DNA from: Verrucomicrobiaceae bacterium
GTDB lineage: Bacteria > Verrucomicrobiota > Verrucomicrobiia > Verrucomicrobiales > Verrucomicrobiaceae
Assembly (NCBI GenBank): GCA_016795365.1
Contig: JAEUHN010000029.1
Span: 186,001-250,000, forward strand
Direction of reading: 5' to 3'
DNA: 64,000 nucleotides
A program made the translations under genes and the position numbers. Below, in pieces: positions 24,424 to 42,080 of this stretch (positions are counted from its first letter, which is position 1; each line of letters opens with the position of its first letter). The notes below the pieces were generated by a model that had not been told where the DNA came from, made no database searches, and saw only the letters and a program-made list of their open reading frames with translations.

Positions 24424-25917
24424 ATGCGCTTCGCGTTGCTCCTCTCGCTCATCACCGTGCTCTCGTCTTTTGCCGCCGAGAAACGCCCGAACTTCCTCTT
24501 CGTCCTCGTCGATGACCAGTCGCCGATGGATTTGAAGATCTACAATCCCAAGTCCGAACTCCAGACGCCCAACATCGACCGCCTCGCGGCCCAAGGCATG
24601 GTCTTCGACGGAGCCTACCACATGGGCTCATCGCTCGGTGCCGTGTGCACGCCTTCGCGCCACATGATCATGAGTGGACGCACGGTGTGGCATCTGCCCG
24701 TCTCGCCCTGGGCCGCCAAGACCAGCCCGCCCAACCTTGAGCAGAACACCATCCCCGCAGTCTTCAATCGCGCAGGCTACGCGACGATGCGCACCTGCAA
24801 ACAAGGCAATAGCTACGAGGCCGCGAACAAGCTCTTCACCGTCCGTCACGATGCATCAAAACGCGGCGGCACCGATGAGTCCGGCAGCGCGTGGCATGCC
24901 GAACGCGTGCTCGACTACCTCACGGATCGCACCACCACGAAGGACTCGAAGCCCTTCCTCATCTACTTCGGCTTCTCCCACCCCCACGACACTCGCGACG
25001 GCAAGCCCGAGCTGCTGGCCAAATACGGAGCCACCAACCACGCCGACCCGGCGACTCTGCCTTCGTTGCACTCGAACCAGCCCGCGCTGCCTCCGAGCTA
25101 CCTCAGCGCCCATCCCTTCGATACCACGCATTCCGATGTGCGTGACGAAGTGGATGTCAGCGGCGTCTGGAAGCACCGCGACGAAGCCAGCATTCGAAAC
25201 GAACTCGGCCGTGAGTTCGCGTGCAGCGAGAACATCGACATCCAGTTGGGCCGCGTCTTGAAACGTCTGGAGGACATGGGCGAACTCGACAACACCTACA
25301 TCTTCTATACCGCTGATCACGGCATCTCGATTGGTCGCCACGGTCTGATGGGAAAACAGAACCTCTATCAGCACACATGGCGCGTGCCCTTCATCGTGAA
25401 AGGACCAGGGATCAAGCCTGGTAGCCGCGTTGAGGGCAACATCTACCTGCTCGATGTGCTCGCCACGCTTTGCGATCTCGCCAGCATTCAGGCACCTGAA
25501 ACGAATGAAGGTCTGAGCTTCAAGCCAGTCCTCCAAGGCTCGCGCACCACCACGCGTGATGTGCTTTATGGTGCCTACGCTGGAGGCAGCAAACCGGGCA
25601 TGAGAAGCGTGAAGCACGGCGACTGGAAGCTGATCCAATACGAAGCCCCGGATCGCAAAGTCAGCGAGACTCAACTCTTCAATCTGGCCGCCAATCCTGA
25701 TGAGTTTCTGAAGGAACATGGCAAGTCCGAGGCGATGCAGACCAACCTCGCCAGCGATCCCAAGCACGCGGCCAAGCTGGCTGAAATGCAGGCCTTGCTG
25801 CTGGCCGAGATGCGGCGTCTGGACGATCCCTGGCGCTTCTCCAATCAACCCGACGATCATCTTCCCGAACCTCCCAAGCCCGCCGCCAAAGGAAAAGGCA
25901 AGGGCAAGACCAAATAA
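24424..25917 (+). CDS. Secreted family-S1 sulfatase (6), K/G tail
   Basis: A 497-residue sulfatase with a signal peptide (1-18). S1 elements: VLVDDQSPMD (Asp30, Asp31), formylglycine site C75-T-P-S-R followed by HMIMSG, and FYTADHGISIGRHGLMGKQNLYQHTWRVPF, which resembles choline-sulfatase and heparan-type sulfatases rather than the ADDxGY-type neighbours. Instead of GKWH it has CKQGN at the corresponding place, suggesting a different sulfated sugar from the others. The C-terminus is a short lysine/glycine tail (AAKGKGKGKTK). It follows the PHP-like gene by 16 bases and precedes sulfatase 7 by 9. Confidence 0.91.
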   Translation: MRFALLLSLITVLSSFAAEKRPNFLFVLVDDQSPMDLKIYNPKSELQTPNIDRLAAQGMVFDGAYHMGSSLGAVCTPSRHMIMSGRTVWHLPVSPWAAKTSPPNLEQNTIPAVFNRAGYATMRTCKQGNSYEAANKLFTVRHDASKRGGTDESGSAWHAERVLDYLTDRTTTKDSKPFLIYFGFSHPHDTRDGKPELLAKYGATNHADPATLPSLHSNQPALPPSYLSAHPFDTTHSDVRDEVDVSGVWKHRDEASIRNELGREFACSENIDIQLGRVLKRLEDMGELDNTYIFYTADHGISIGRHGLMGKQNLYQHTWRVPFIVKGPGIKPGSRVEGNIYLLDVLATLCDLASIQAPETNEGLSFKPVLQGSRTTTRDVLYGAYAGGSKPGMRSVKHGDWKLIQYEAPDRKVSETQLFNLAANPDEFLKEHGKSEAMQTNLASDPKHAAKLAEMQALLLAEMRRLDDPWRFSNQPDDHLPEPPKPAAKGKGKGKTK

Positions 25918-25926
25918 CGACTTCTC

Positions 25927-27567
25927 ATGAATCTCCGGCTGCTCGCACTTCTGCTCTCAACCTTGGTCGTCACGTCCTCGTTTGCGGCCTCGAAACCCAA
26001 CGTCGTCTTCATCCTCGCTGACGATCTCGGCTACTCGGACCTCGGCTGCTACGGCGGCGACATCGCCACGCCTAACCTCGACTCACTGGCGAAGAATGGC
26101 CTGCGCTTCACCCAGTTCTACAACACCGCTCGCTGCTGGCCTACGCGCGGTGCGCTGATGACCGGCTACTACGCGCAGCAGATCCATCGCGATGCTTTGC
26201 CCGGTGTCGGCGGCGGTGGTCAGGGCGTGCGTCAGCAGTGGGCGCGCTTGCTGCCAGATTTCCTCAAGCCCGCAGGCTACAGGTGCTACCACAGCGGCAA
26301 GTGGCACATCGACGGCAAGGTTCTCGACGGCGGCTTCGACCGCTCGCTCGACATGAAGAATCAGGGCAACTTCTTCACCTCGGCTGGCAACTCGATCGAC
26401 GATGTGGCAGTGAAACCACCCGCCGACGAAAATGGCTACTACGCGACCATCGCCACGGCAGATCACGCGATCGAATGCCTGAAGGATCACGCCGCGAATT
26501 TCAAAGATCGACCCTTCTTCCACTACATCCCGTTCATTGCGCCGCACTTCCCGCTCCACGCCTTGCCTGAGGACATTGCGAAGTATCGCGACAAGTATCT
26601 TGCCGGCTGGGAAGCCATGCGCGCTGCACGTTTTGCGAAGCAAAAAGAGATGGGCATCACCAACACGACGCTCTCAGCTCTCGAGCGGGAGGTCGGTCCT
26701 CCGTATGCCTTCCCGGATGCCATGGAGAAGCTCGGCTCTGGTGAGGTGAATCGTCCGCTGCCATGGAGCGAGCTGACCGAAGAGCAGCGTCGTTTCCAGG
26801 CCACGAAGATGGCCATACACGCCGCGATGGTGGACCGCATGGACCAGGAAATCGGCATCATCATCACGCAGCTCAAAGCGATGAATGCCTTCGAAAACAC
26901 GCTCATCTTCTTCGCTTCCGACAATGGTGCCAGCGCCGAGATCATGGTGCGCAACGGCGGCCATGATCCGAAGGCCGAGCCCGGCAGCACGGCGACGTAT
27001 CTTTGCCTTGGGCCCGGCTTCTCCAGCGCGTGCAACACACCGCATCGTCGCCACAAAACCTGGGTCCATGAAGGCGGCATCAGCACGCCGCTCATCGCGC
27101 ATTGGCCTGCGGGGATGAGCGCGAAGAATGAACTGCGCCACACACCTGCGCACGTCATCGACATCGTGCCCACTGTGCTCGAACTCGCGGGCATCCAGAA
27201 GCCCACGGAGTGGAAAGGTGAGCCCATTCCGCCCGCGCCCGGCAAGAGTCTCGTGCCTGCCTTTGCCAAAGACGAAACCATCGCTCGTGACAGCCTCTGG
27301 TGGCTTCACGAAGACAACCGCGCGGTGCGCGTGGGCGACTTCAAGCTCGTCGCCGCCAAAGGTGACCCCTGGGAGCTTTACGATCTCAAGACGGATCGCG
27401 CCGAGCAGCACAACCTCGCCGCTCAGATGCCCGAGAAGGTGAAGGAACTCGAGCAGGTCTGGCAGAAGCAGACCGATGACTTCACCGCCCTCGTGAAGAA
27501 GACCCTCGCCAATCAGCCCCAACCCAAAGGCGGGAAGGGGAAGGGTAAAGGCAAGGGCAAGAAGTGA
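25927..27567 (+). CDS. Secreted family-S1 sulfatase (7), K/G tail
   Basis: A 546-residue sulfatase with a signal peptide (1-20). S1 elements: LADDLGYSDLGCYGG (Asp32, Asp33), formylglycine site C70-W-P-T-R with ALMTG, SGKWHIDG and FASDNGAS. It is a paralog of sulfatase 2: both have LRFTQFYNTARC before the active site, a C-terminal third with THRRHKTWVHEGGISTPL-like sequence and a glycine-lysine tail. Here the tail is the most extreme of the cluster, about 13 residues of only Gly and Lys (KGGKGKGKGKGKK). The stop codon overlaps a possible GTG start of the next sulfatase, so the two are tightly coupled. Confidence 0.92.
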   Translation: MNLRLLALLLSTLVVTSSFAASKPNVVFILADDLGYSDLGCYGGDIATPNLDSLAKNGLRFTQFYNTARCWPTRGALMTGYYAQQIHRDALPGVGGGGQGVRQQWARLLPDFLKPAGYRCYHSGKWHIDGKVLDGGFDRSLDMKNQGNFFTSAGNSIDDVAVKPPADENGYYATIATADHAIECLKDHAANFKDRPFFHYIPFIAPHFPLHALPEDIAKYRDKYLAGWEAMRAARFAKQKEMGITNTTLSALEREVGPPYAFPDAMEKLGSGEVNRPLPWSELTEEQRRFQATKMAIHAAMVDRMDQEIGIIITQLKAMNAFENTLIFFASDNGASAEIMVRNGGHDPKAEPGSTATYLCLGPGFSSACNTPHRRHKTWVHEGGISTPLIAHWPAGMSAKNELRHTPAHVIDIVPTVLELAGIQKPTEWKGEPIPPAPGKSLVPAFAKDETIARDSLWWLHEDNRAVRVGDFKLVAAKGDPWELYDLKTDRAEQHNLAAQMPEKVKELEQVWQKQTDDFTALVKKTLANQPQPKGGKGKGKGKGKK

Positions 27568-27575
27568 GTCAGCTC

Positions 27576-29033
27576 ATGAAGTCACTTCTCATTTACCTCT
27601 CGCTCGCCGCAACGATCCAGGCCGCTGAGACGCCCAACATCGTCTTCATCGTCGCTGACGACATGGGCTATGCGGACCTCGGCACACAAGGTGCCAAGGG
27701 GTTCAAGACACCTCACCTCGACCAGCTCGCGGCTGAAGGAACGCGGTTCACCCACTTCTACGTGGCCCAAGCGGTCTGCACAGCCTCGCGTGCTGCATTG
27801 ATGACAGGTTGCTACCCGAATCGCATCGGGATGCAGGGCGCTTACAATCACACGAGTCGCGACGGCATCGCAGATGAAGAGTGGCTTCTGCCAGAGATGC
27901 TGAAGGAGCGAGGCTACGCGACGGCTGCCGTCGGCAAATGGCATCTGGGAACACGATTGAAGTTCAATCCCACACGCCACGGCTTCGATGAGTGGCTGGG
28001 CATCCCCTACTCGAATGACAACTCGAAGTATCATCCTTCGCTCGCCGCTGAGATGCCTCCGCTGCCGCTTTACGATGGTGAGAAGATCATCGAGCACGAT
28101 CCTGACCAGGCCTTGTTCACCAGTCGCTTCACCCAGCGAGCGGTCGAGTTCATCGAGCGCAACGCCGCGCGTCCGTTCTTCCTCTATCTGCCGCACGTCA
28201 TGCCGCATGTGCCGATCTTTGCCTCGGAAAAGTTCAAAGGCCGCTCCGAGCTGGGACTTTACGGCGATGTGATGGAAGAACTCGATTGGTCGGTCGGCGA
28301 GGTGCTTGGCACTTTGAAGCGCCTAAAGCTCGAGGATCGCACGGTCCTGATCTTCATCTCTGACAACGGCCCCTTCCTCTCATATGGGGAGCACGCAGGC
28401 TCTGCGAAACCTCTGCGCGAAGGCAAGCTCACGACCTTCGAAGGCGGCGTGCGTGTGCCGTGCCTCGTGCGTTGGCCGGGGCATGTGCCGAGTGCTCGCG
28501 TTTGTGATGAGCCGTTCATGGGCATCGACTGGCTGCCCACGCTGACGGAGATCGTCGGAGGCAAGCCTTCCACACGGAAGATCGACGGGCTCTCAGCCAA
28601 AGGTTTGATCCTCGGCGAGAAGGATGCTCGCTGTCCGCATGAAGCGCTCTTTTTCTACTCAGGGACGGCTTTGCAAGCGGTGCGCAGCGGCGCGTGGAAG
28701 CTGCACTTCGCCCATCCCTACATCACTGTCGCTGCCGAACCCGGACGCGGCGGCAAGCCCTCGAACTTCGGCAAACTCGCACCAACGAGCATCACTCAGT
28801 CCGGCGTCGAAGGCATCGCGACACGGCACGGCTATCGCATCGAGCAGCTCGAACTCTCGCTCTTCGATCTGGCGTCTGATCCCGGTGAAACGAAGAACGT
28901 TGCGGCCGAACATCCTGACGTGGTGCAGCGTCTCAGCGCCCTCGCCGAAGCTGCACGCCAGGACCTTGGCGACTCGCTTCAATCCATCAAAGGCAACGGC
29001 CTTCGCTCGCCTGGCATCGACACTTCCAACTGA
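27576..29033 (+). CDS. Secreted family-S1 sulfatase (8), CxAxR type
   Basis: A 485-residue sulfatase; ATG 27576 gives a standard signal peptide (MKSLLIYLSLAATIQA), while a GTG at 27564 overlapping the upstream stop is a weaker choice. S1 elements: VADDMGYADLG (Asp28, Asp29), formylglycine site C68-T-A-S-R with ALMTGCYP, GKWHLGT, GIPYSND and FISDNGP. The Cys-x-Ala-x-Arg form is a known alternative to Cys-x-Pro-x-Arg. It is close to sulfatase 5, which has Val at the same place. Resemblance is to N-acetylgalactosamine-6-sulfatase/arylsulfatase A-like enzymes. No K/G tail is present. Confidence 0.91.
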   Translation: MKSLLIYLSLAATIQAAETPNIVFIVADDMGYADLGTQGAKGFKTPHLDQLAAEGTRFTHFYVAQAVCTASRAALMTGCYPNRIGMQGAYNHTSRDGIADEEWLLPEMLKERGYATAAVGKWHLGTRLKFNPTRHGFDEWLGIPYSNDNSKYHPSLAAEMPPLPLYDGEKIIEHDPDQALFTSRFTQRAVEFIERNAARPFFLYLPHVMPHVPIFASEKFKGRSELGLYGDVMEELDWSVGEVLGTLKRLKLEDRTVLIFISDNGPFLSYGEHAGSAKPLREGKLTTFEGGVRVPCLVRWPGHVPSARVCDEPFMGIDWLPTLTEIVGGKPSTRKIDGLSAKGLILGEKDARCPHEALFFYSGTALQAVRSGAWKLHFAHPYITVAAEPGRGGKPSNFGKLAPTSITQSGVEGIATRHGYRIEQLELSLFDLASDPGETKNVAAEHPDVVQRLSALAEAARQDLGDSLQSIKGNGLRSPGIDTSN

Positions 29034-29039
29034 TCTCCA

Positions 29040-30581
<1,542 letters not shown>

Positions 30582-34278: not shown

Positions 34279-35970
34279 ATGAACCACAACGGTCATCGTT
34301 CCGCTCGTGAAACCTGGCAGCGCTTTCGCAGCGCCGCACGGACCTTCCTTGCCTCGGCAGACGGTCGTCAGGCGCGATGGTGGTTCGCGCTGCTCGTTAC
34401 CCTGCTCCTCGGCGTGAATGGACTCAACGTGATCAACAGCTACGTTGGGCGCGACTTCATCTCCGCCATCGAGAACAAGAACACCTCGCGCTTCATTCTC
34501 CAGGCCTGGCTTTATGCCGGGGTGTTCATGCTCTCCACTTTAGTCGCGGTCTTTTACCGCTTTGCTGAAGAGCGCCTCGCACTGCTCTGGCGTGACTGGC
34601 AAACCAGACAGGTGCTCGATCGCTATCTGAGAGATCGCACCTTTTATCAACTGCATGAGTCTGGGGCACTGGAGAATCCCGATCAGCGCATCGCTGAGGA
34701 CATTCGCGCCTTCACCACCACCACGCTGTCGTTCCTGCTGATGACACTTAATGCCTCGTTCACGGTGCTCGCGTTCGCCGGCGTGTTGTGGACGATCAGC
34801 CCGCGGTTGTTTGTCTTTGCCGTTTGCTATGCCTTGGCAGGCTCCGCCTTCACCGTGCTGCTCGGGAAGCGTCTCGTAGGCCTCAACGACAAGCAGCTCG
34901 ACAAGGAAGCCAACTTCCGTGCCGAACTCATGCACGTGCGCGAACATGCCGAATCACTCGCCTTGCTCGATCGTGAGGATCAGCTCAGAGGACGGTTGCA
35001 CGAGCGACTTCGTGACCTCGTTCGCAATGCCCGCAACATCACCGTGGTCAATCGCAACCTCGGCTTCTTCACCACGGGCTACAATTACTTCATCCAAATC
35101 ATTCCCGCCCTGATTGTTGCCCCGTTCTTCATCCGTGGCGAAGTGGAGTTCGGCGTGATCACGCAGTCCGCGATGGCCTTTGCGCAGTTGATGGGTGCCT
35201 TCTCGCTCATCGTCACCCAGTTCCAGTCCATCTCCACCTACGCGGCCGTAGTTACCCGGCTCGACAAGCTGGTCAACGCCATCGACGACACCTGCTCGCC
35301 CCAGAACTCTCCCATCCAGGTGCGCTATGAACCGCACCAGATCAGCTACCAAAATCTCACGCTTCAATCCGCAGACGGCACCCTCTTCGTCAAGGATCTC
35401 AACCTCACCATCCCACGAGGTTCTCGAGTCTTGGTCGCTTCCACCTCGGGCCATGCCAAACAGGCGCTCTTCAAAGCAACGGCCGGTCTGTCCTGTGATG
35501 GTTCCGGAGTCATCGTGCGGCCAGAACCGGAGTCGATGATGTTCCTGCCTGAGCGCCCCTATCTTCCCGCAGGCAGTTTGCGCTCGCTGCTTCTGTTGCT
35601 GGGACACAGCGATGCCTCGCGCGATGCCGAAGTGCGCACCATGCTATCCATCCTCGGGATCGAGCATGTGATCGATCAAGCGGGCGGGCTTGACAGTGAA
35701 CGCGATTGGAATGGGCTACTATCGCTCAGCGATCAGGCCATGCTGGCGGTTGCACGAGTCATGCTAGCGGCTCCCGAGTTCGTGTTCGTGGACAGACTCA
35801 CCGTCACCTTCGACTCCGCACAAGGCGAACGCGTGCTGTCGATCCTGGCCGAACGCCAGATGACAGTCCTCGTCCTTGGCAAGCCCGGCGACACCACCAT
35901 GCCCTACGACGCCACTCTCACCATCGAACGTGATGGCTCGTGGTCCTGGTCCTCAACTCAAGAGCGATGA
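34279..35970 (+). CDS. SbmA/BacA-type ABC transporter with degenerate ATPase domain
   Basis: A 563-residue fusion of a transmembrane domain (about 1-320, six helices, with LNVINSYVGRDFISAIE and RLALLWRDWQTRQVLDRYL typical of the ABC_membrane_2/SbmA-BacA family) and a nucleotide-binding domain (about 340-555). Family members import antimicrobial peptides, cobalamin or bleomycin. The NBD is clearly homologous (LFKATAGL, Walker B-like EFVFVDRLTVTFD) but its key motifs are broken: the P-loop reads G391-H-A-K-Q, lacking the Gly before the Lys and the Ser/Thr after it; the signature is SLSDQ instead of SxGEQ; Walker B Asp505 is followed by Arg rather than the catalytic Glu. ATP hydrolysis is unlikely. 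ATG 34279 follows the xylA terminator; the upstream frame extension is not conserved. Confidence 0.82.
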   Translation: MNHNGHRSARETWQRFRSAARTFLASADGRQARWWFALLVTLLLGVNGLNVINSYVGRDFISAIENKNTSRFILQAWLYAGVFMLSTLVAVFYRFAEERLALLWRDWQTRQVLDRYLRDRTFYQLHESGALENPDQRIAEDIRAFTTTTLSFLLMTLNASFTVLAFAGVLWTISPRLFVFAVCYALAGSAFTVLLGKRLVGLNDKQLDKEANFRAELMHVREHAESLALLDREDQLRGRLHERLRDLVRNARNITVVNRNLGFFTTGYNYFIQIIPALIVAPFFIRGEVEFGVITQSAMAFAQLMGAFSLIVTQFQSISTYAAVVTRLDKLVNAIDDTCSPQNSPIQVRYEPHQISYQNLTLQSADGTLFVKDLNLTIPRGSRVLVASTSGHAKQALFKATAGLSCDGSGVIVRPEPESMMFLPERPYLPAGSLRSLLLLLGHSDASRDAEVRTMLSILGIEHVIDQAGGLDSERDWNGLLSLSDQAMLAVARVMLAAPEFVFVDRLTVTFDSAQGERVLSILAERQMTVLVLGKPGDTTMPYDATLTIERDGSWSWSSTQER

Positions 35971-35973
35971 TGT

Positions 35974-38900
35974 TCAGTGACCAAGAATCACCATCACTTC
36001 ATGCTCGCTAGCACTATGAGAAATCGGCACTCGCGCCTCGCCATCGACGATCTCGACCGCGACACCATCGAGCGTTGCTGAAAGCACCGTCGCTGCACAG
36101 CCCGATGGATTGCGCACATGGATGTGAAAAACGACGTCATCTTGCGAGGTGTAGTCGATTCGATACTCCAGCCAGTCGTCCGGCACACAGGGTTTCAAGA
36201 TCAGCGTCGTGCCGCGCTCGATTCGCAGCCCCAGCACCGACTCCACCGCCACACGGAACGCCCAACCAGCCGAGCCAGTATACCACGTCCAACCACCGCG
36301 ACCGACATGCGGCTCCGCGCCATAGACATCCGCCGCGATCACGTATGGCTCCACCTTGTAGCGATCCAGATCGCGCTTCGCGTGAGCCATCGGACTCAAC
36401 ATCGTCAGCCACTTTGCTGCCTTGTCACGCCAGCCCAGTTTCGCTGCCGCAGCGACCATCCAGCACGAGGCGTGAGTGTATTGCCCGCCGTTCTCGCGCA
36501 CACCAGCGACGTAGCCTTTGATGTAGCCCGGATCATCTTCCATCGACACGAATGGCGGCGTTAGCAGTCGCAGCAAGCCGTCAGCATCGCGAATCAGATG
36601 ACGCTCCGCCGAGGCCATCGCCTGCACTGCTCGATCCGCAGGCGCAGCGCCCGACAGCACCGCCCACGCCTGCGCCAAGCCATCAATGCGGCACTCGCTC
36701 GCGTCCTTCGTGCCCAGCGGATGACCGTTGTCGAAGTAGGCTCGCCGATACCACTCGCCGTCCCATCCGGCTTCGTTCAAAGCCACGCGCAGTTGCTCGC
36801 GATGCGCTGTGTATCGTCGCAAGCGCTCGTGGTCTTCGTGTTGCTCCGCGACCGGAATGAACTCGCCGAGGACCGTGTAGAGGAAGAAGCCCATCCACAC
36901 GCTCTCGCCACGACCTTCGCGTCCCACGCGATTCATGCCGTCGTTCCAATCGCCCGTGCCCATCAGTGGCAAGCCATGCACCCCCACCGCTAGCGACCTG
37001 TCGATCGCCCGGCAGCAGTGCTCATAGATCGTGCCCGACTCCTCGCTGACCTCAGGCTTCAGATAGTTCTCGTCTTCGCCGGGCTTGAGCAGCGGCGCTG
37101 CAAGGAAAGGCTGCGTCTCACTCCAAAGCGAATCGTCATCCGTGCTCTTCACATAACTGCACGCCACCAGCGGCAGCCACAGCAGATCATCGGCAAAGCG
37201 AGTCCGCACACCGCGCTCGATCGGTGCCTCGTGCCACCAGTGCAGCACATCGCCTTCCACGAACTGATGCCGTGCATGTAGCAGGATCTGCGCGCGTGTC
37301 AGCCCTGGCCACAGCAGCGTGAGATTGCCCGCATCCTGCAACTGATCACGAAAGCCAAACGCTCCGCTCGATTGGTAGAACGCCGTGCGCCCCCAGATAC
37401 GACAGGCCAGCGCTTGATAGGTCAGCCAGCCGTTGAGCATCGCGTTGATCTCCGGCACCGGCGTCGTCACTCGCACATGGCCGAAGCTCTTCTTCCAGAA
37501 GCCGGTCACCGCCACGAGTTCGGCATCCACGGCAGCCATCGTCGAGTAGCGTTCTCGCAACCGTGCGACCTCCGCTTCACCCACGCCTTCGCCCAGCACG
37601 ATGCAACCGCCGAAGGTCTCGCCCGGAGGCAAGCTGAAGCTCCACTCCCACGCGAAGCACAGATCGGCACCGATCGCGTCGTCGACATCGAAACCTCGCT
37701 CACGCATCGCTCTCGGCGAGCGCGGCGTGCCACGTTCACCGAGGAAGCTGAAGCGATCGGTCATCGCACGTCGGCTCGTGATCGCGGCACCCTCGAACGC
37801 ACCCAAACAGAACGCGACGCCGTCGCTGAACTCGCTGCTCTGCATGCGCTGCGCGAGCAATGCATCACCACTTCGCCATGTCTTGATCTCTGCTCCAGAC
37901 AAAGTCCCCATCACCAGTCGGTGGAAACTGACGAGCGAAAGCTGCCGCATCTCCGCACTCGCATTCGTGATCCGCACACGCACCAGCTTCACCGGATCAT
38001 CCTTCGCCACAAACACCGTCGTCTCGTGCTTCAAGCCATGCGCCTCCACCTCGTAGCGCGAATATCCAAACCCATGCGCGACATCATACGTGGCCCGCGC
38101 AGGACAAGGCCCCGGCAGCGGCGACCAGAACTCTCGCGTTACTTCGTCTCGAAGATAAAGCGCCTCGCCGTGAGGATCGCAGACGGGATCGTTCGACCAC
38201 GGCGTGAGCCGGTTTGCCTGGCTGTTGCGTGACCAGGTGCAACTCGCACCCGTCTCACTGATCAGGCATCCGAAGTGATCGTTGGCGATCACATTGATCC
38301 ACGGCATCGGCGGCAAGGCGAGCTGATCACCTTGCCATGGAATCCGCATTCGATACTCGTTGTAGTCCTCATTGAAGCCGTGCTCGAACACTGTCGCGGA
38401 CGGCTCGCCTGTGATCGGCAGCAGCGGTGCCTCAGCGGGCGGCACACCAAGATTCGCGAGCACCGCATCGATCTGCGCATGATCCGCCACCGCACCGCAC
38501 ACGAAGGTGATGGTCCGCTCCTCGCCCGGCGCCAGTCGCAAGGTCGTGCGCAGGCTGAAGACAGGATCGAGCACATTGCCCACGGTATTCTCCATCCGCA
38601 TCGCCGGACGCGCCGCACTGCGACCTCGCCCGATGAACTTCACGCGATCTGTCTCACACGCCTCCACCTCAGGACCAATCAGGGCATGAAACATCGCCGG
38701 CCACGACTCACCTGCGCTGCGTGGCCGACGCTTCGCCACCAACGCGTGTCGCCCGTCCGCGAACTCGGTCTGCACGAACAGCTTCGAGAACGCCGGATGC
38801 CCCAGATCACCCATCGGATGCGCTAGCGCGACTTCGATGTAACTCGTGACTTCGATGGTTCGCAGACGATCCGTTTCGTTGCGAACAACAAGCCTTCGCT

Positions 38901-39219
38901 GCTCAGCATCGCAGTCCGTTCGCACGGAAACGTCCAGCGTTGATCGGATGCCGTGACGATGATGAGCAAACTCCACCGCCGTCTTCGTCGCTTTCGTGCA
39001 GACATTCGCCGAGTCGTCGCCGACCGGCTGCAAGGTCGCCGACCACAGCTCGCTCGTGTCCACGTCTCGCAGGTAGATGAAGAAGCCATGCGCATCTTCA
39101 ATCGCATCCCCCGGCCAGCGATTGAGCGCGATCCAGTCGAGACATGATTGGCCACTGCCAGCATCGGTGAGCAGCACCTTGTAACGTCCGTTGGAGAGTT
39201 CGTGAGGTTTCGCAGTCAT
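35974..39219 (-). CDS. GH94 glycoside phosphorylase-like protein
   Basis: A 1081-residue protein without signal peptide, so cytoplasmic. Two beta-sandwich regions occupy roughly the first 550 residues, the first with NGRYKVLLTDAGSG, the second with a PWINVIAND start and RDEVTREFWSPLPGP, as in the duplicated layout of NdvB-like and 1,2-beta-oligoglucan phosphorylases. The C-terminal (alpha/alpha)6 barrel has FGFRDQLQDAGNL and GTGDWNDGMNRVG with the expected catalytic Asp in the D757-W-N-D760 segment. GH94 enzymes split beta-glucans or cellobiose with phosphate to give sugar 1-phosphate. The start overlaps the stop of the upstream glycosidase gene by 4 bases, so the two are one operon. The exact linkage specificity is not visible. 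Confidence 0.85.
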   Translation of the reverse strand: MTAKPHELSNGRYKVLLTDAGSGQSCLDWIALNRWPGDAIEDAHGFFIYLRDVDTSELWSATLQPVGDDSANVCTKATKTAVEFAHHRHGIRSTLDVSVRTDCDAEQRRLVVRNETDRLRTIEVTSYIEVALAHPMGDLGHPAFSKLFVQTEFADGRHALVAKRRPRSAGESWPAMFHALIGPEVEACETDRVKFIGRGRSAARPAMRMENTVGNVLDPVFSLRTTLRLAPGEERTITFVCGAVADHAQIDAVLANLGVPPAEAPLLPITGEPSATVFEHGFNEDYNEYRMRIPWQGDQLALPPMPWINVIANDHFGCLISETGASCTWSRNSQANRLTPWSNDPVCDPHGEALYLRDEVTREFWSPLPGPCPARATYDVAHGFGYSRYEVEAHGLKHETTVFVAKDDPVKLVRVRITNASAEMRQLSLVSFHRLVMGTLSGAEIKTWRSGDALLAQRMQSSEFSDGVAFCLGAFEGAAITSRRAMTDRFSFLGERGTPRSPRAMRERGFDVDDAIGADLCFAWEWSFSLPPGETFGGCIVLGEGVGEAEVARLRERYSTMAAVDAELVAVTGFWKKSFGHVRVTTPVPEINAMLNGWLTYQALACRIWGRTAFYQSSGAFGFRDQLQDAGNLTLLWPGLTRAQILLHARHQFVEGDVLHWWHEAPIERGVRTRFADDLLWLPLVACSYVKSTDDDSLWSETQPFLAAPLLKPGEDENYLKPEVSEESGTIYEHCCRAIDRSLAVGVHGLPLMGTGDWNDGMNRVGREGRGESVWMGFFLYTVLGEFIPVAEQHEDHERLRRYTAHREQLRVALNEAGWDGEWYRRAYFDNGHPLGTKDASECRIDGLAQAWAVLSGAAPADRAVQAMASAERHLIRDADGLLRLLTPPFVSMEDDPGYIKGYVAGVRENGGQYTHASCWMVAAAAKLGWRDKAAKWLTMLSPMAHAKRDLDRYKVEPYVIAADVYGAEPHVGRGGWTWYTGSAGWAFRVAVESVLGLRIERGTTLILKPCVPDDWLEYRIDYTSQDDVVFHIHVRNPSGCAATVLSATLDGVAVEIVDGEARVPISHSASEHEVMVILGH

Positions 39220-42080
39220 GTGTGGAGAAGGAGGTGTGCTGAGGCAGAACGAATGACAACCTCGTTGCGTCGGAGTTCAGCTTGGCCTTGAAGAACTTCG
39301 AGGTGCTTCACCTTCAGCGGTGGACGCAAGACGAGGCCTCCAGACGCTGCCACATTGCCCGCGATGAGGCACTTCACGCTCGATGCGGAAGCGCGAACGA
39401 GCGAGAAGTCGAGCCGACCGAAGATCGTGGGCACATCGCTCAGACGAATGCCGTTTCCTTTCATCCACTCGGCATCGATGCCCGCCGCAAGCACGAGTTG
39501 CTGTCGCGTTTCGTCTTCAAAGACAAACAGACTGCGCACCGCGAGCACGAACTCCGCTGCGATCCAGGTGTGCGGCACATCACCGATGTGCGCTGGTGCG
39601 AGCGGATCGCGCCACGCAATCTCTGGCCATTGATTCCACGCGAGCGGTCGCCGGTCACTCATGCAGAAGCGCAGCAACTCCAGTGCTGCCTCGCGAAGAC
39701 CCAGTCGCACCAGCGCACCGATGATGCGAATTTCATACGGCGTGTAGTTCGTCCAAGGCAACTCACCCGTGCGCTTGCGCCGCCAGTCGATCAGATACTT
39801 GTCGAAAGTCCACTCGATAGCAGTGCGGTCGAGTTGTTCAGGCACATCAAGCAACGTGATGGCGTTGGCCGTTGCTGTCGGATCGAAGTCAGCCCACTCC
39901 ACGCTGCCGGGATTGTAGTCGAGTTGTTTCTTCGCTCGCGTTCCCTGAATAGCCCGGGCAAGCGATTCACGCACTCGCTCCATCAGCGTTTGCCACTTCG
40001 TCTTCTTACCTAAGCGATCCGCCAGCCACACAGCATCGCGCAGTCCTCGCCAGGTCCAGAAGCCATCCCAGAACGAATGCACTGGCTGCGCCAAGTAGCC
40101 TTCATGGCTGGCCGAGATCGGCATGAGGCCATTCGCTTCGAGCGATCGCTCAATGAAGTTCACAGCCTTCACCACACGAAGCCAATGTCGCTTCATGGGC
40201 ACCTCGTCGCCGGTGAAGCGAACATAGTCCGCGATGAGCGCGATGAACTGCCCGTGGCTGTCGTGCTCGACCAGCCAGTCCACACCATCGCGATCGACAC
40301 AGCACGGCACAAAGCCATCCGCGCGCTGATGCGGCGCATACCAGTCGATGAACTCGCGCACTTCGTCAGCACAGCCCATGCGCAGCAGTGCAGCGCTCAT
40401 GATCGTGCCATCGCGAATCCACGAGCGCGTGTAGCGGCGCGGACCCGGTTGCAAAGCGGGACCGCTGCGGGTGAGCAAGACGTGACCCATGGCCGTGTGC
40501 ATCGCACGCAGCACCTCGGCACCACCATTGGCACATGACCAGCGTTCGGGGCTGAGCTTGGCCTTCCAGTCAAACGGTCGAGCGCTCGTGGTCGAGGTGC
40601 CAAGATGGAACTCGCGACTCTCTCCAGCCTGAAGTTTCAACTCTATCGATAGCACGCCAGAGGCAAAGCCGACGTCGTCATCCACTTCGTCGCGGGATGG
40701 AAGCCGGCCTTCGATCAGTCGTTCAACCAGATTGCCTTCATCGAAAGTCATCGCGCCAAACGCTGCCTCTGCGGGCGCGTGAATCGAGAGCGATTCATTG
40801 ACGCGCACCACGCTGCCCACTCGGCTCAAGCGCTCGATTCGCGACACTCCGCCGACATTGCGAAAGTGCTGCCAGGGCGGTGTGACTTGGAACGGACGAA
40901 GCGCGACGAAGAGCTTCGCTGTCAGCTTTCGACGGCTGTGGTTGGTGAAGTGGTAGGTCACGCGAAGGCTGTGGTCACTGAGCCCTTGCCCCGCAATCTC
41001 CAACGACCACGAACGTGCATTCCACGTCACCTTTGGCTCAGGCTTCCATTCGTCTTCCAGCGCAAGATCAGTCGCCACATCGGCCCAGGTGAAACGCTTG
41101 CCGCTGACCTGCACGAAAGGCTCCAGCGAGCAGGAGCCCTCGGCGAGTTCTACCATGCCTTGCTCATTGATGAGCGCACAGTCTCGTCGATCGGGCGTGC
41201 CGAATGGCGTCCACAAACTCTGCTCTCGCAGCAACCATCGCGGATGCCAGCCGCGTGGCGTGTGTGCAGCGATGCTTGGCCAGAAGGATTCCGGCGAGCG
41301 TGAGAACTCGAAGGGCTGCACGCGCACCGCCTTTGCCACCGCATCACCGGAGGTGATGCGCAGCCAGCGAGTTCGCGTGTTGGGCAGCGAAACGAAACTA
41401 CGAGCACCACCAGCGCGCGTCGCCCGGTAGAGTCTTCGCCAGCGCTTGCCATCGAGCGAGCCATCAACTTGGAAGCCATCGAGCGGCGCTGCCTTCTTCC
41501 AGTCAATGATGAGACCACCAAGAGCGCGCACAGCTCCCGCATCCAGCGTGATCCAGTGAGGTGCTCGGCGCGAGCGAGTGAGTGCCGGCTTGGCGGTGAA
41601 GGATTGGTCTTCGAGGCACACATCGCTGATCCATGCTTTGCCAGCGCCGCCATCTTTCGCGACGATCGCGAACTCGATCGCGCCAAGCTTGCGAATCGTG
41701 CCACCGCCCGCAGGTCCCCACGCGAAGTGGAGATCACGACTGCTCACCACCATCTTGCTCCATCGTCCGGTGAACTTCAGATCGCGTCGCTCGTAGCGCC
41801 AGACGTTGGCTCCGGTATCATCGACGAGCTTGAGTTCCAGGTGGTTCACCGGACCGCGTCCGCACCAGCGGAAGCTGATCTCGAAGTCCTGCGGCATCCG
41901 TCGCTTGATCTCCCGCCGAGCGACCACAAAGCCGCCGCCTCCCATGAAGTCGAAGTCGAGATGCAATTGCTTCGACTGCACTTCCAGCGCCAGACGCGCC
42001 TCACCCGAGGCGATCGGCAGCCATGCCTTCGTCCGGGTGAAGAGGTTGAGATCCACGCTGCTCATGGCTTTCACGTTCAT
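39216..42080 (-). CDS. Discoidin-like plus six-hairpin glycosidase-like protein
   Basis: A 954-residue protein without signal peptide; ATG 42080 is used, with ATG 42065 as a close alternative. The N-terminal third is beta-rich: an elaborate carbohydrate-binding-like region (WLPIASGEARLALEV, DFEISFRWCGRGPVNHLELKL) and an F5/8 type C-like unit (GGLIIDWKKAAPLDGFQVDGSLDG then TRWLRIT). From about 545 the sequence looks like an (alpha/alpha)6 barrel glycosidase, with YTRSWIRDGTIMSAALLRMG, GFVPCCVDRDG and FWDGFWTWRGLRDAVWLA. No family number can be given safely. Its 4-base overlap with the GH94 gene suggests the two act together on an oligosaccharide in the cytoplasm. It diverges from the GntR regulator and shares its upstream region. 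Confidence 0.7.
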   Translation of the reverse strand: MNVKAMSSVDLNLFTRTKAWLPIASGEARLALEVQSKQLHLDFDFMGGGGFVVARREIKRRMPQDFEISFRWCGRGPVNHLELKLVDDTGANVWRYERRDLKFTGRWSKMVVSSRDLHFAWGPAGGGTIRKLGAIEFAIVAKDGGAGKAWISDVCLEDQSFTAKPALTRSRRAPHWITLDAGAVRALGGLIIDWKKAAPLDGFQVDGSLDGKRWRRLYRATRAGGARSFVSLPNTRTRWLRITSGDAVAKAVRVQPFEFSRSPESFWPSIAAHTPRGWHPRWLLREQSLWTPFGTPDRRDCALINEQGMVELAEGSCSLEPFVQVSGKRFTWADVATDLALEDEWKPEPKVTWNARSWSLEIAGQGLSDHSLRVTYHFTNHSRRKLTAKLFVALRPFQVTPPWQHFRNVGGVSRIERLSRVGSVVRVNESLSIHAPAEAAFGAMTFDEGNLVERLIEGRLPSRDEVDDDVGFASGVLSIELKLQAGESREFHLGTSTTSARPFDWKAKLSPERWSCANGGAEVLRAMHTAMGHVLLTRSGPALQPGPRRYTRSWIRDGTIMSAALLRMGCADEVREFIDWYAPHQRADGFVPCCVDRDGVDWLVEHDSHGQFIALIADYVRFTGDEVPMKRHWLRVVKAVNFIERSLEANGLMPISASHEGYLAQPVHSFWDGFWTWRGLRDAVWLADRLGKKTKWQTLMERVRESLARAIQGTRAKKQLDYNPGSVEWADFDPTATANAITLLDVPEQLDRTAIEWTFDKYLIDWRRKRTGELPWTNYTPYEIRIIGALVRLGLREAALELLRFCMSDRRPLAWNQWPEIAWRDPLAPAHIGDVPHTWIAAEFVLAVRSLFVFEDETRQQLVLAAGIDAEWMKGNGIRLSDVPTIFGRLDFSLVRASASSVKCLIAGNVAASGGLVLRPPLKVKHLEVLQGQAELRRNEVVIRSASAHLLLHT

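Follow-up and report, generated by a model that had tools for sequence, protein, structure and literature searches.

The ATP engine of an ABC half-transporter encoded in a 64,000-nucleotide stretch of DNA from a Verrucomicrobiaceae bacterium (the whole of the stretch analysed, hereafter the window) was inactivated long ago across an entire lineage, and the window protein preserves a middle step in the departure from ATP drive. The explanation that we prefer, with moderate confidence, is that the protein carries its substrate, probably beta-1,2-gluco-oligosaccharides, across the inner membrane independently of ATP, powered by a gradient of ions or of the substrate.

The degenerate nucleotide-binding domain and its clade

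The transporter gene (34279..35970, + strand) runs from an ATG at 34279 to a TGA at 35968-35970 and encodes 563 residues: a PF06472-type transmembrane domain (TMD) fused to a nucleotide-binding domain (NBD) that, by ORF, Pfam and motif alignment, appears catalytically dead. Called mechanically, the longest ORF starts further out, from a TTG (34237); the ATG is backed by conserved N-termini among relatives (MNHNGH/MNNNGH/(M)NSNGH). Pfam places ABC_membrane_2 (PF06472) at residues 31-284 (1.6e-40, 139.6 bits; cut-off 24.4) and the SbmA_BacA profile matches at 6.7e-14, while ABC_tran scores 14.4 bits against the C-terminal part, under its curated cut-off of 25. Among solved structures, those nearest in sequence are ABCD transporters (including ABCD4) and Rv1819c, with SbmA far behind. 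The first-pass annotation described the protein as SbmA/BacA-like; sequence search and tree place its closest kin instead in the YddA/BclA/ABCD branch, and it is a half-size ABC protein of that NBD-bearing branch.

The TMD (residues 31-335; 34369..35283, +) comprises six long helices without an SbmA-type TM0, predicted by AlphaFold2 (AF2) at residues 27-65, 69-118, 133-173, 175-222, 233-285 and 291-338. The vestigial or structural NBD (residues 346-559; 35314..35955, +) is predicted by AF2 and Foldseek to be folded despite lacking catalytic motifs: its pLDDT is mostly 78-90, the TMD being less sure (about 37-80). Top Foldseek matches of the model are ABCD3, ABCD1 and Rv1819c, with whole-chain TM-scores <0.5, given which the domain orientation in this monomer model is unreliable.

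Alignment shows substitutions throughout the catalytic motifs, all on the + strand. The P-loop reads STSGHAKQA (residues 388-396; 35440..35466) and the signature LSLSDQ (residues 481-486, in a feature spanning 480-487; 35716..35739); the catalytic Glu of Walker B (FVD-R) is Arg (D505-R506; 35779..35796) and the switch (H-loop) His is Lys (K535; 35881..35883). These residues agree with the first-pass readings of GHAKQ, SLSDQ and Asp-Arg, to which must be added the loss of the switch His and of the Q-loop Gln (Glu at 425). K394 and D505 are still present. By every motif the window NBD seems catalytically dead, and we infer that it lacks ATPase activity.

Relatives were drawn from whole-genome searches, a contig scan and plasmid records. 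Among the 60 full-length members of the clade (a few rows being near-identical, or from one genome present in two collections) neither a canonical P-loop (GxxGxGK[S/T]) nor the switch His occurs (0/60 each), and the catalytic Glu is found once (1/60, L152). P-loop, Walker B Glu and switch His are all intact in 21/21 rows of the sister clade. Since the Walker A Lys is retained in 40/60 and the Walker B Asp in 56/60, nucleotide binding is possible. The clade spans Verrucomicrobiota, Rhizobiaceae plasmids (Ensifer canadensis, Rhizobium sp. CB3060 and CB3171, R. binae) and one gamma-proteobacterial MAG contig labelled Sinobacteraceae (L034), for which mis-binning is possible; its presence on Rhizobiaceae plasmids shows transfer between phyla.

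Three further sequences bear mention. A long-branch sister of the dead clade (L188; G603:C249:22463-24112) has intact P-loop and Walker B, with the switch His replaced by Asn, and may represent a first step of decay. On a plasmid of Rhizobium sp. WYJ-E13 (L097, 4001-5360) a dead-clade copy lies across several frames and is apparently decaying. Outside the clade, a PF06472 protein on Azospirillum lipoferum plasmid AZO_p5 (L090:1773-3626), adjoining glycosidase genes, combines a degenerate P-loop (GDATATIR) and an altered Walker B (LEDAT) with a retained His: possibly a separate, independent case of NBD decay.

For close pairs dN/dS was computed by the Nei-Gojobori method, TMD and NBD apart. The window protein and its 95% identical congener, which carries the same motif changes, give 0.030 (0.013-0.055) for the TMD and 0.108 (0.064-0.190) for the NBD. 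In most close pairs the value for the dead NBD lies at 0.05-0.19, and in most it exceeds that of the protein's own TMD; higher values (L001/L003, 0.42; L094/L095, 0.22; L094/L096, 0.35, with almost no differences) arise where dS nears saturation, where a pair has diverged widely or where there are few differences. Most pairs of active sisters have similar values for the two domains. Dead NBDs are thus under purifying selection: constraint is relaxed relative to the TMD, yet far from absent. They also share newly conserved positions – A396 (57/60), Q-loop E425 (52/60) and F398 (28/29) – which fit a structural or regulatory use. These data answer two checks proposed in the first-pass annotation, on constraint and on orthologs: the NBD is still constrained, and the losses are common to all 60 full-length relatives, which excludes intact orthologs beside a recently decayed window copy. 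Degenerate motifs in a sequence taken from a MAG could in themselves suggest recent decay or a pseudogene; the congener in another species, the NBD dN/dS and the 60 relatives together rule this out, and we give it practically no weight.

Loss of the domain within the clade

Ten proteins of the clade, of about 340-375 residues, end just past TM6 and have no NBD; these TMD-only forms retain long TM helices. A tree built from TMD columns unites the dead and NBD-less proteins in a single group (support 100/100), with SbmA positioned elsewhere, and the NBD-less proteins are nested within the dead group (nodes 100/99 and 100/96). Constraining 29 dead full-length proteins together without the NBD-less ones was rejected (p-AU 3e-5). 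The first-pass suggestion of an intermediate therefore stands in one respect, in that NBD-less relatives arose inside the clade and the window protein is a true intermediate; it fails in the other, because the tree shows an independent lineage and not a path towards SbmA. The clade appears to be a second, parallel loss of ATP drive, apart from the path of SbmA.

The full-length protein closest to the NBD-less group is L152. In L179 (G608:C19) the TMD ORF is intact and >90% identical to the L152 TMD; a frameshift follows, beyond which the NBD is open but out of frame and 78% identical to that of L152. Either the loss is under way here or the frameshift is a MAG or assembly error. No NBD relic was found downstream of most TMD-only genes, L179 being the exception. 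The three states, with the NBD intact (L069), dead (L047) or absent (L068), even coexist in a single genome, G345.

Several apparent cases of separation were rejected. The split genes of G244 (L084, G244:C1) and G419 (L075, G419:C60), considered as separated TMD and NBD, are frame-broken active paralogs with intact motifs; the two genomes belong to the same order, and G419 has an NBD-less copy besides its broken active-type paralog. L186, which seemed NBD-less, is cut by a contig end, and what seemed an in-frame NBD remnant in L182 is its reading frame running by chance into the following SOGP gene.

Active sisters have DNAESIAFYRGEKRE as coupling helix 2, a sequence that has loosened in dead proteins and eroded in NBD-less ones; in the window protein both intracellular loops are full length and the sequence of loop 2 is loosened. 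In the preferred reading the NBD catalytic residues would have been lost in the ancestor of the clade, and the dead domain would have been retained as a folded brace (or regulator) beneath the TMD. After the loss of catalysis the coupling-helix sequence would have loosened and, in one sub-lineage, the NBD would have been dropped entirely, the TMD and gene neighbourhood staying.

Gene neighbourhood, partners and energy source

The adjacent gene (35974..39219, - strand) encodes an NdvB-type GH94 phosphorylase, identified by profile and sequence searches (DWND motif at residue 757) and the only GH94_b-supersand protein of the genome. Linked to it is a conserved neighbour (39216..42080, -) whose 954-residue product has weak F5/8C and weak glucoamylase-type (TIGR01577) similarity and no N-terminal signal-like stretch. 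The GH94 domain of NdvB-type synthase shortens beta-1,2-glucan through phosphorolysis (PMC11842490, PMC10901819). An enzyme with SOGP domains takes this place at other loci; it is closest to 5H3Z, the 1,2-beta-oligoglucan phosphorylase of L. phytofermentans (PMC5309861).

A GH94 or SOGP phosphorylase is present at 23/40 dead or NBD-less loci (seven of them NBD-less) against 0/16 active-paralog loci; 17/40 are without one in the DNA seen. An earlier neighbour count gave 20/36 against 0/15 (Fisher 1e-4); both sets of counts ignore kinship. Several Verrucomicrobiota families show the linkage, as do an Ensifer plasmid (L088) and the gamma-proteobacterial MAG (L034), and its extension to two phyla and two types of enzyme speaks against coincidence. 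At rhizobial loci proteins of PF10091, which we take to be the Pfam family behind cyclase and beta-1,2-glucanase domains, lie alongside; they have no signal peptides, so a role in synthesis or export is possible. Among the neighbours scanned in the window there is no secreted endo-beta-1,2-glucanase (GH144/GH162) or sugar-binding protein. With no glucan synthase observed next to the window gene, import is the favoured direction; export is also possible. Taken with the weak glucoamylase-type neighbour and PF10091, the phosphorylase linkage puts beta-1,2-gluco-oligosaccharides first among the candidate cargoes: the neighbouring genes suggest beta-1,2-glucan and not peptides, and a beta-1,2-glucan-related cargo is, on balance, slightly favoured.

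Two other features of these neighbourhoods were recorded. At some loci (L106, L107, L110, L111, L088, L095) fermentation and energy genes recur: acetate kinase/phosphotransacetylase with a cNMP domain, PPK2, and fumarase/DcuAB or phosphoketolase. In the window, positions 24424-30581 (+) hold consecutive sulfatase-type genes, three confirmed by Pfam and a fourth that groups with them by sequence.

Partners were sought in 34 genomes that encode a dead or NBD-less protein, 29 of them at least 90% complete. In 33/34 it is the single PF06472 protein; G012 adds one further match, to a broken, stop-containing fragment. No family partner therefore supplies the ATPase, and an ATP-competent half of the same family is not required; an obligate heterodimer with an intact same-family paralog is ruled out by these genome searches.

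We infer a homodimer, as we do its cargo, its direction and its energy source. That it is a carrier independent of ATP hydrolysis, whatever the cargo, is quite likely, and SbmA provides a precedent for an ATP-independent ABC TMD in the available text of PMC13316013. The homodimeric half-transporter would be a secondary (ion-coupled) carrier or a gradient-driven facilitator, and facilitation with metabolic trapping is as good a reading as ion coupling. The adjacent phosphorylase would handle beta-1,2-gluco-oligosaccharides in the cytosol, and phosphorolysis, by yielding Glc-1-P, could on its own draw the substrate in, so that ATP would not be needed.

SbmA uses a ladder of six glutamates (as given in the accessible part of PMC13316013). 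At E193/E203/E269/E276/E287/E378 the window protein has E, L, N, E, R and T; across the clade the equivalents of E193 and E276 (E140 and E210) are kept, and E203, E269, E287 and E378 are L, N, R and A/S/T. A complete ladder was sought in the clade and 2/6 positions are present, both also in ATP-driven sisters, so that there is no sequence mark of SbmA-type proton coupling; the ladder of YddA is likewise incomplete in the same portion of PMC13316013. Proton coupling in particular thus seems somewhat doubtful. Other polar positions distinguish the clade: TM1 carries the clade-specific motif N47-x-x-N50-V-x-N53 (34417..34437, +; N50 in 60/60 and 10/10), and T87 and Q273 are likewise near-invariant and clade-specific. 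So is D208 of D208-x-E210 (34900..34908, +), near the cytosolic end of TM4; invariant within the clade and missing from active sisters, it lies two residues ahead of E210, the aligned equivalent of SbmA E276, and is a candidate ion site.

Relatives of known function in this family move peptides or cobalamin (in the text available of PMC12003926 and PMC13316013), and the protein might carry peptides, antimicrobial peptides or a cobalamin-like substrate without ATP hydrolysis, as SbmA, BclA and Rv1819c do, the glucan enzymes being coincidental. The loci without a phosphorylase would suit such a cargo, but the linkage recurs across lineages with two enzyme subtypes and is absent from active-paralog loci, and the clade-specific changes N47, N50, N53, T87 and Q273 are all polar; we regard a peptide cargo as unlikely. 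Dependence on ATP, through a paired or borrowed NBD of an unrelated ABC protein or through ATP binding without hydrolysis powering one step, is likewise improbable. K394 and D505 remain, the window genome encodes many other ABC ATPases and heterodimeric exporters with one degenerate site are common (PMC7756269). Yet 33/34 genomes have no same-family partner, Glu, switch His, Q-loop and P-loop Gly are all lost together, and NBD-less relatives persist in the same neighbourhood while their coupling helix 2 erodes.

The loss of ATPase motifs and the tight linkage to cytosolic enzymes would also be expected of a membrane anchor or sensor for the glucan enzymes that carries nothing. However, the TMD is more constrained than the NBD, the new polar residues of TM1, TM2 and TM5 are near-invariant, as a transport path would need, and the TMD-only forms keep their long helices: this account is very unlikely. 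The preferred reading, an ATP-independent carrier, can be extended to a natural conversion of an ABC transporter that took place a second time, independently and step by step, with all stages (working, dead but retained, and no NBD) in one phylum and even in the single genome G345, and with beta-1,2-gluco-oligosaccharides as a new class of cargo, pulled by cytosolic phosphorolysis in place of ATP; in this full form it is put forward tentatively, at rather less than even probability.

Comparison with known systems

SbmA raises the question of how an ATP-driven ABC pump can become a secondary carrier. In the available text of PMC13316013 SbmA is proposed to stem from a YddA-like TMD separated from its NBD; the window clade shows another order in a lineage of its own, catalysis being lost first and the domain later. 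Active, dead and absent NBDs occur here in close relatives with a shared neighbourhood, which opens the proposed succession to direct test: catalysis goes first, the domain stays, the coupling helix relaxes and the domain is then shed. The clade is also an unrecognised candidate transporter family for beta-1,2-glucans. The searched text of two surveys of SbmA/BacA/BclA origins (PMC12003926, PMC13316013) makes no mention of Verrucomicrobiota or of inactive fused NBDs.

Among ABC systems with a degenerate or missing ATPase, heterodimeric exporters (PMC7756269) likewise contain an NBD with substituted catalytic residues, but there the partner supplies a working site, whereas the genomes of the window clade have no family partner. 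LmrA without its NBD, a laboratory truncation, is a secondary transporter that catalyses proton-ethidium symport (PMC6155054): again an ABC TMD acts as a secondary transporter, although LmrA belongs to a different ABC family and was engineered, while the loss in the window clade is natural and evolutionarily staged. The cyclic beta-1,2-glucan exporter Cgt/ChvA/NdvA shares the type IV ABC fold and the beta-1,2-glucan context, but it is of a different ABC family, has working NBDs and exports; the window genome encodes no protein of this type over the TIGR01192 cut-off.

With the SbmA/BacA (SLiPT) family the clade would share an ABC-type TMD working without ATPase, and it has the equivalents of E193 and E276. 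Its TMD-only members have reached the SbmA/BacA architecture in parallel, and the erosion of coupling helix 2 parallels the deletion of the coupling helices in SbmA, both of which are kept in the window protein. Unlike SbmA/BacA, however, the clade is a separate lineage that keeps the NBD in most members, has no TM0 (the N-terminal extension of SbmA has no counterpart in the window protein) and is missing 4/6 ladder glutamates; it is mainly verrucomicrobial, whereas SbmA/BacA is reported only in Pseudomonadota in the text available of PMC12003926. From the YddA/BclA type (E. coli YddA, Rv1819c, eukaryotic ABCD1-4), which it resembles in TMD family, fold and C-terminal-NBD half-transporter layout, the clade differs in its missing catalytic motifs, clade-specific TM residues and beta-1,2-glucan phosphorylase linkage, and in the disappearance of the NBD from one sub-lineage. 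The clade is thus of the YddA/ABCD kind, and would work like the SLiPT family without belonging to it.
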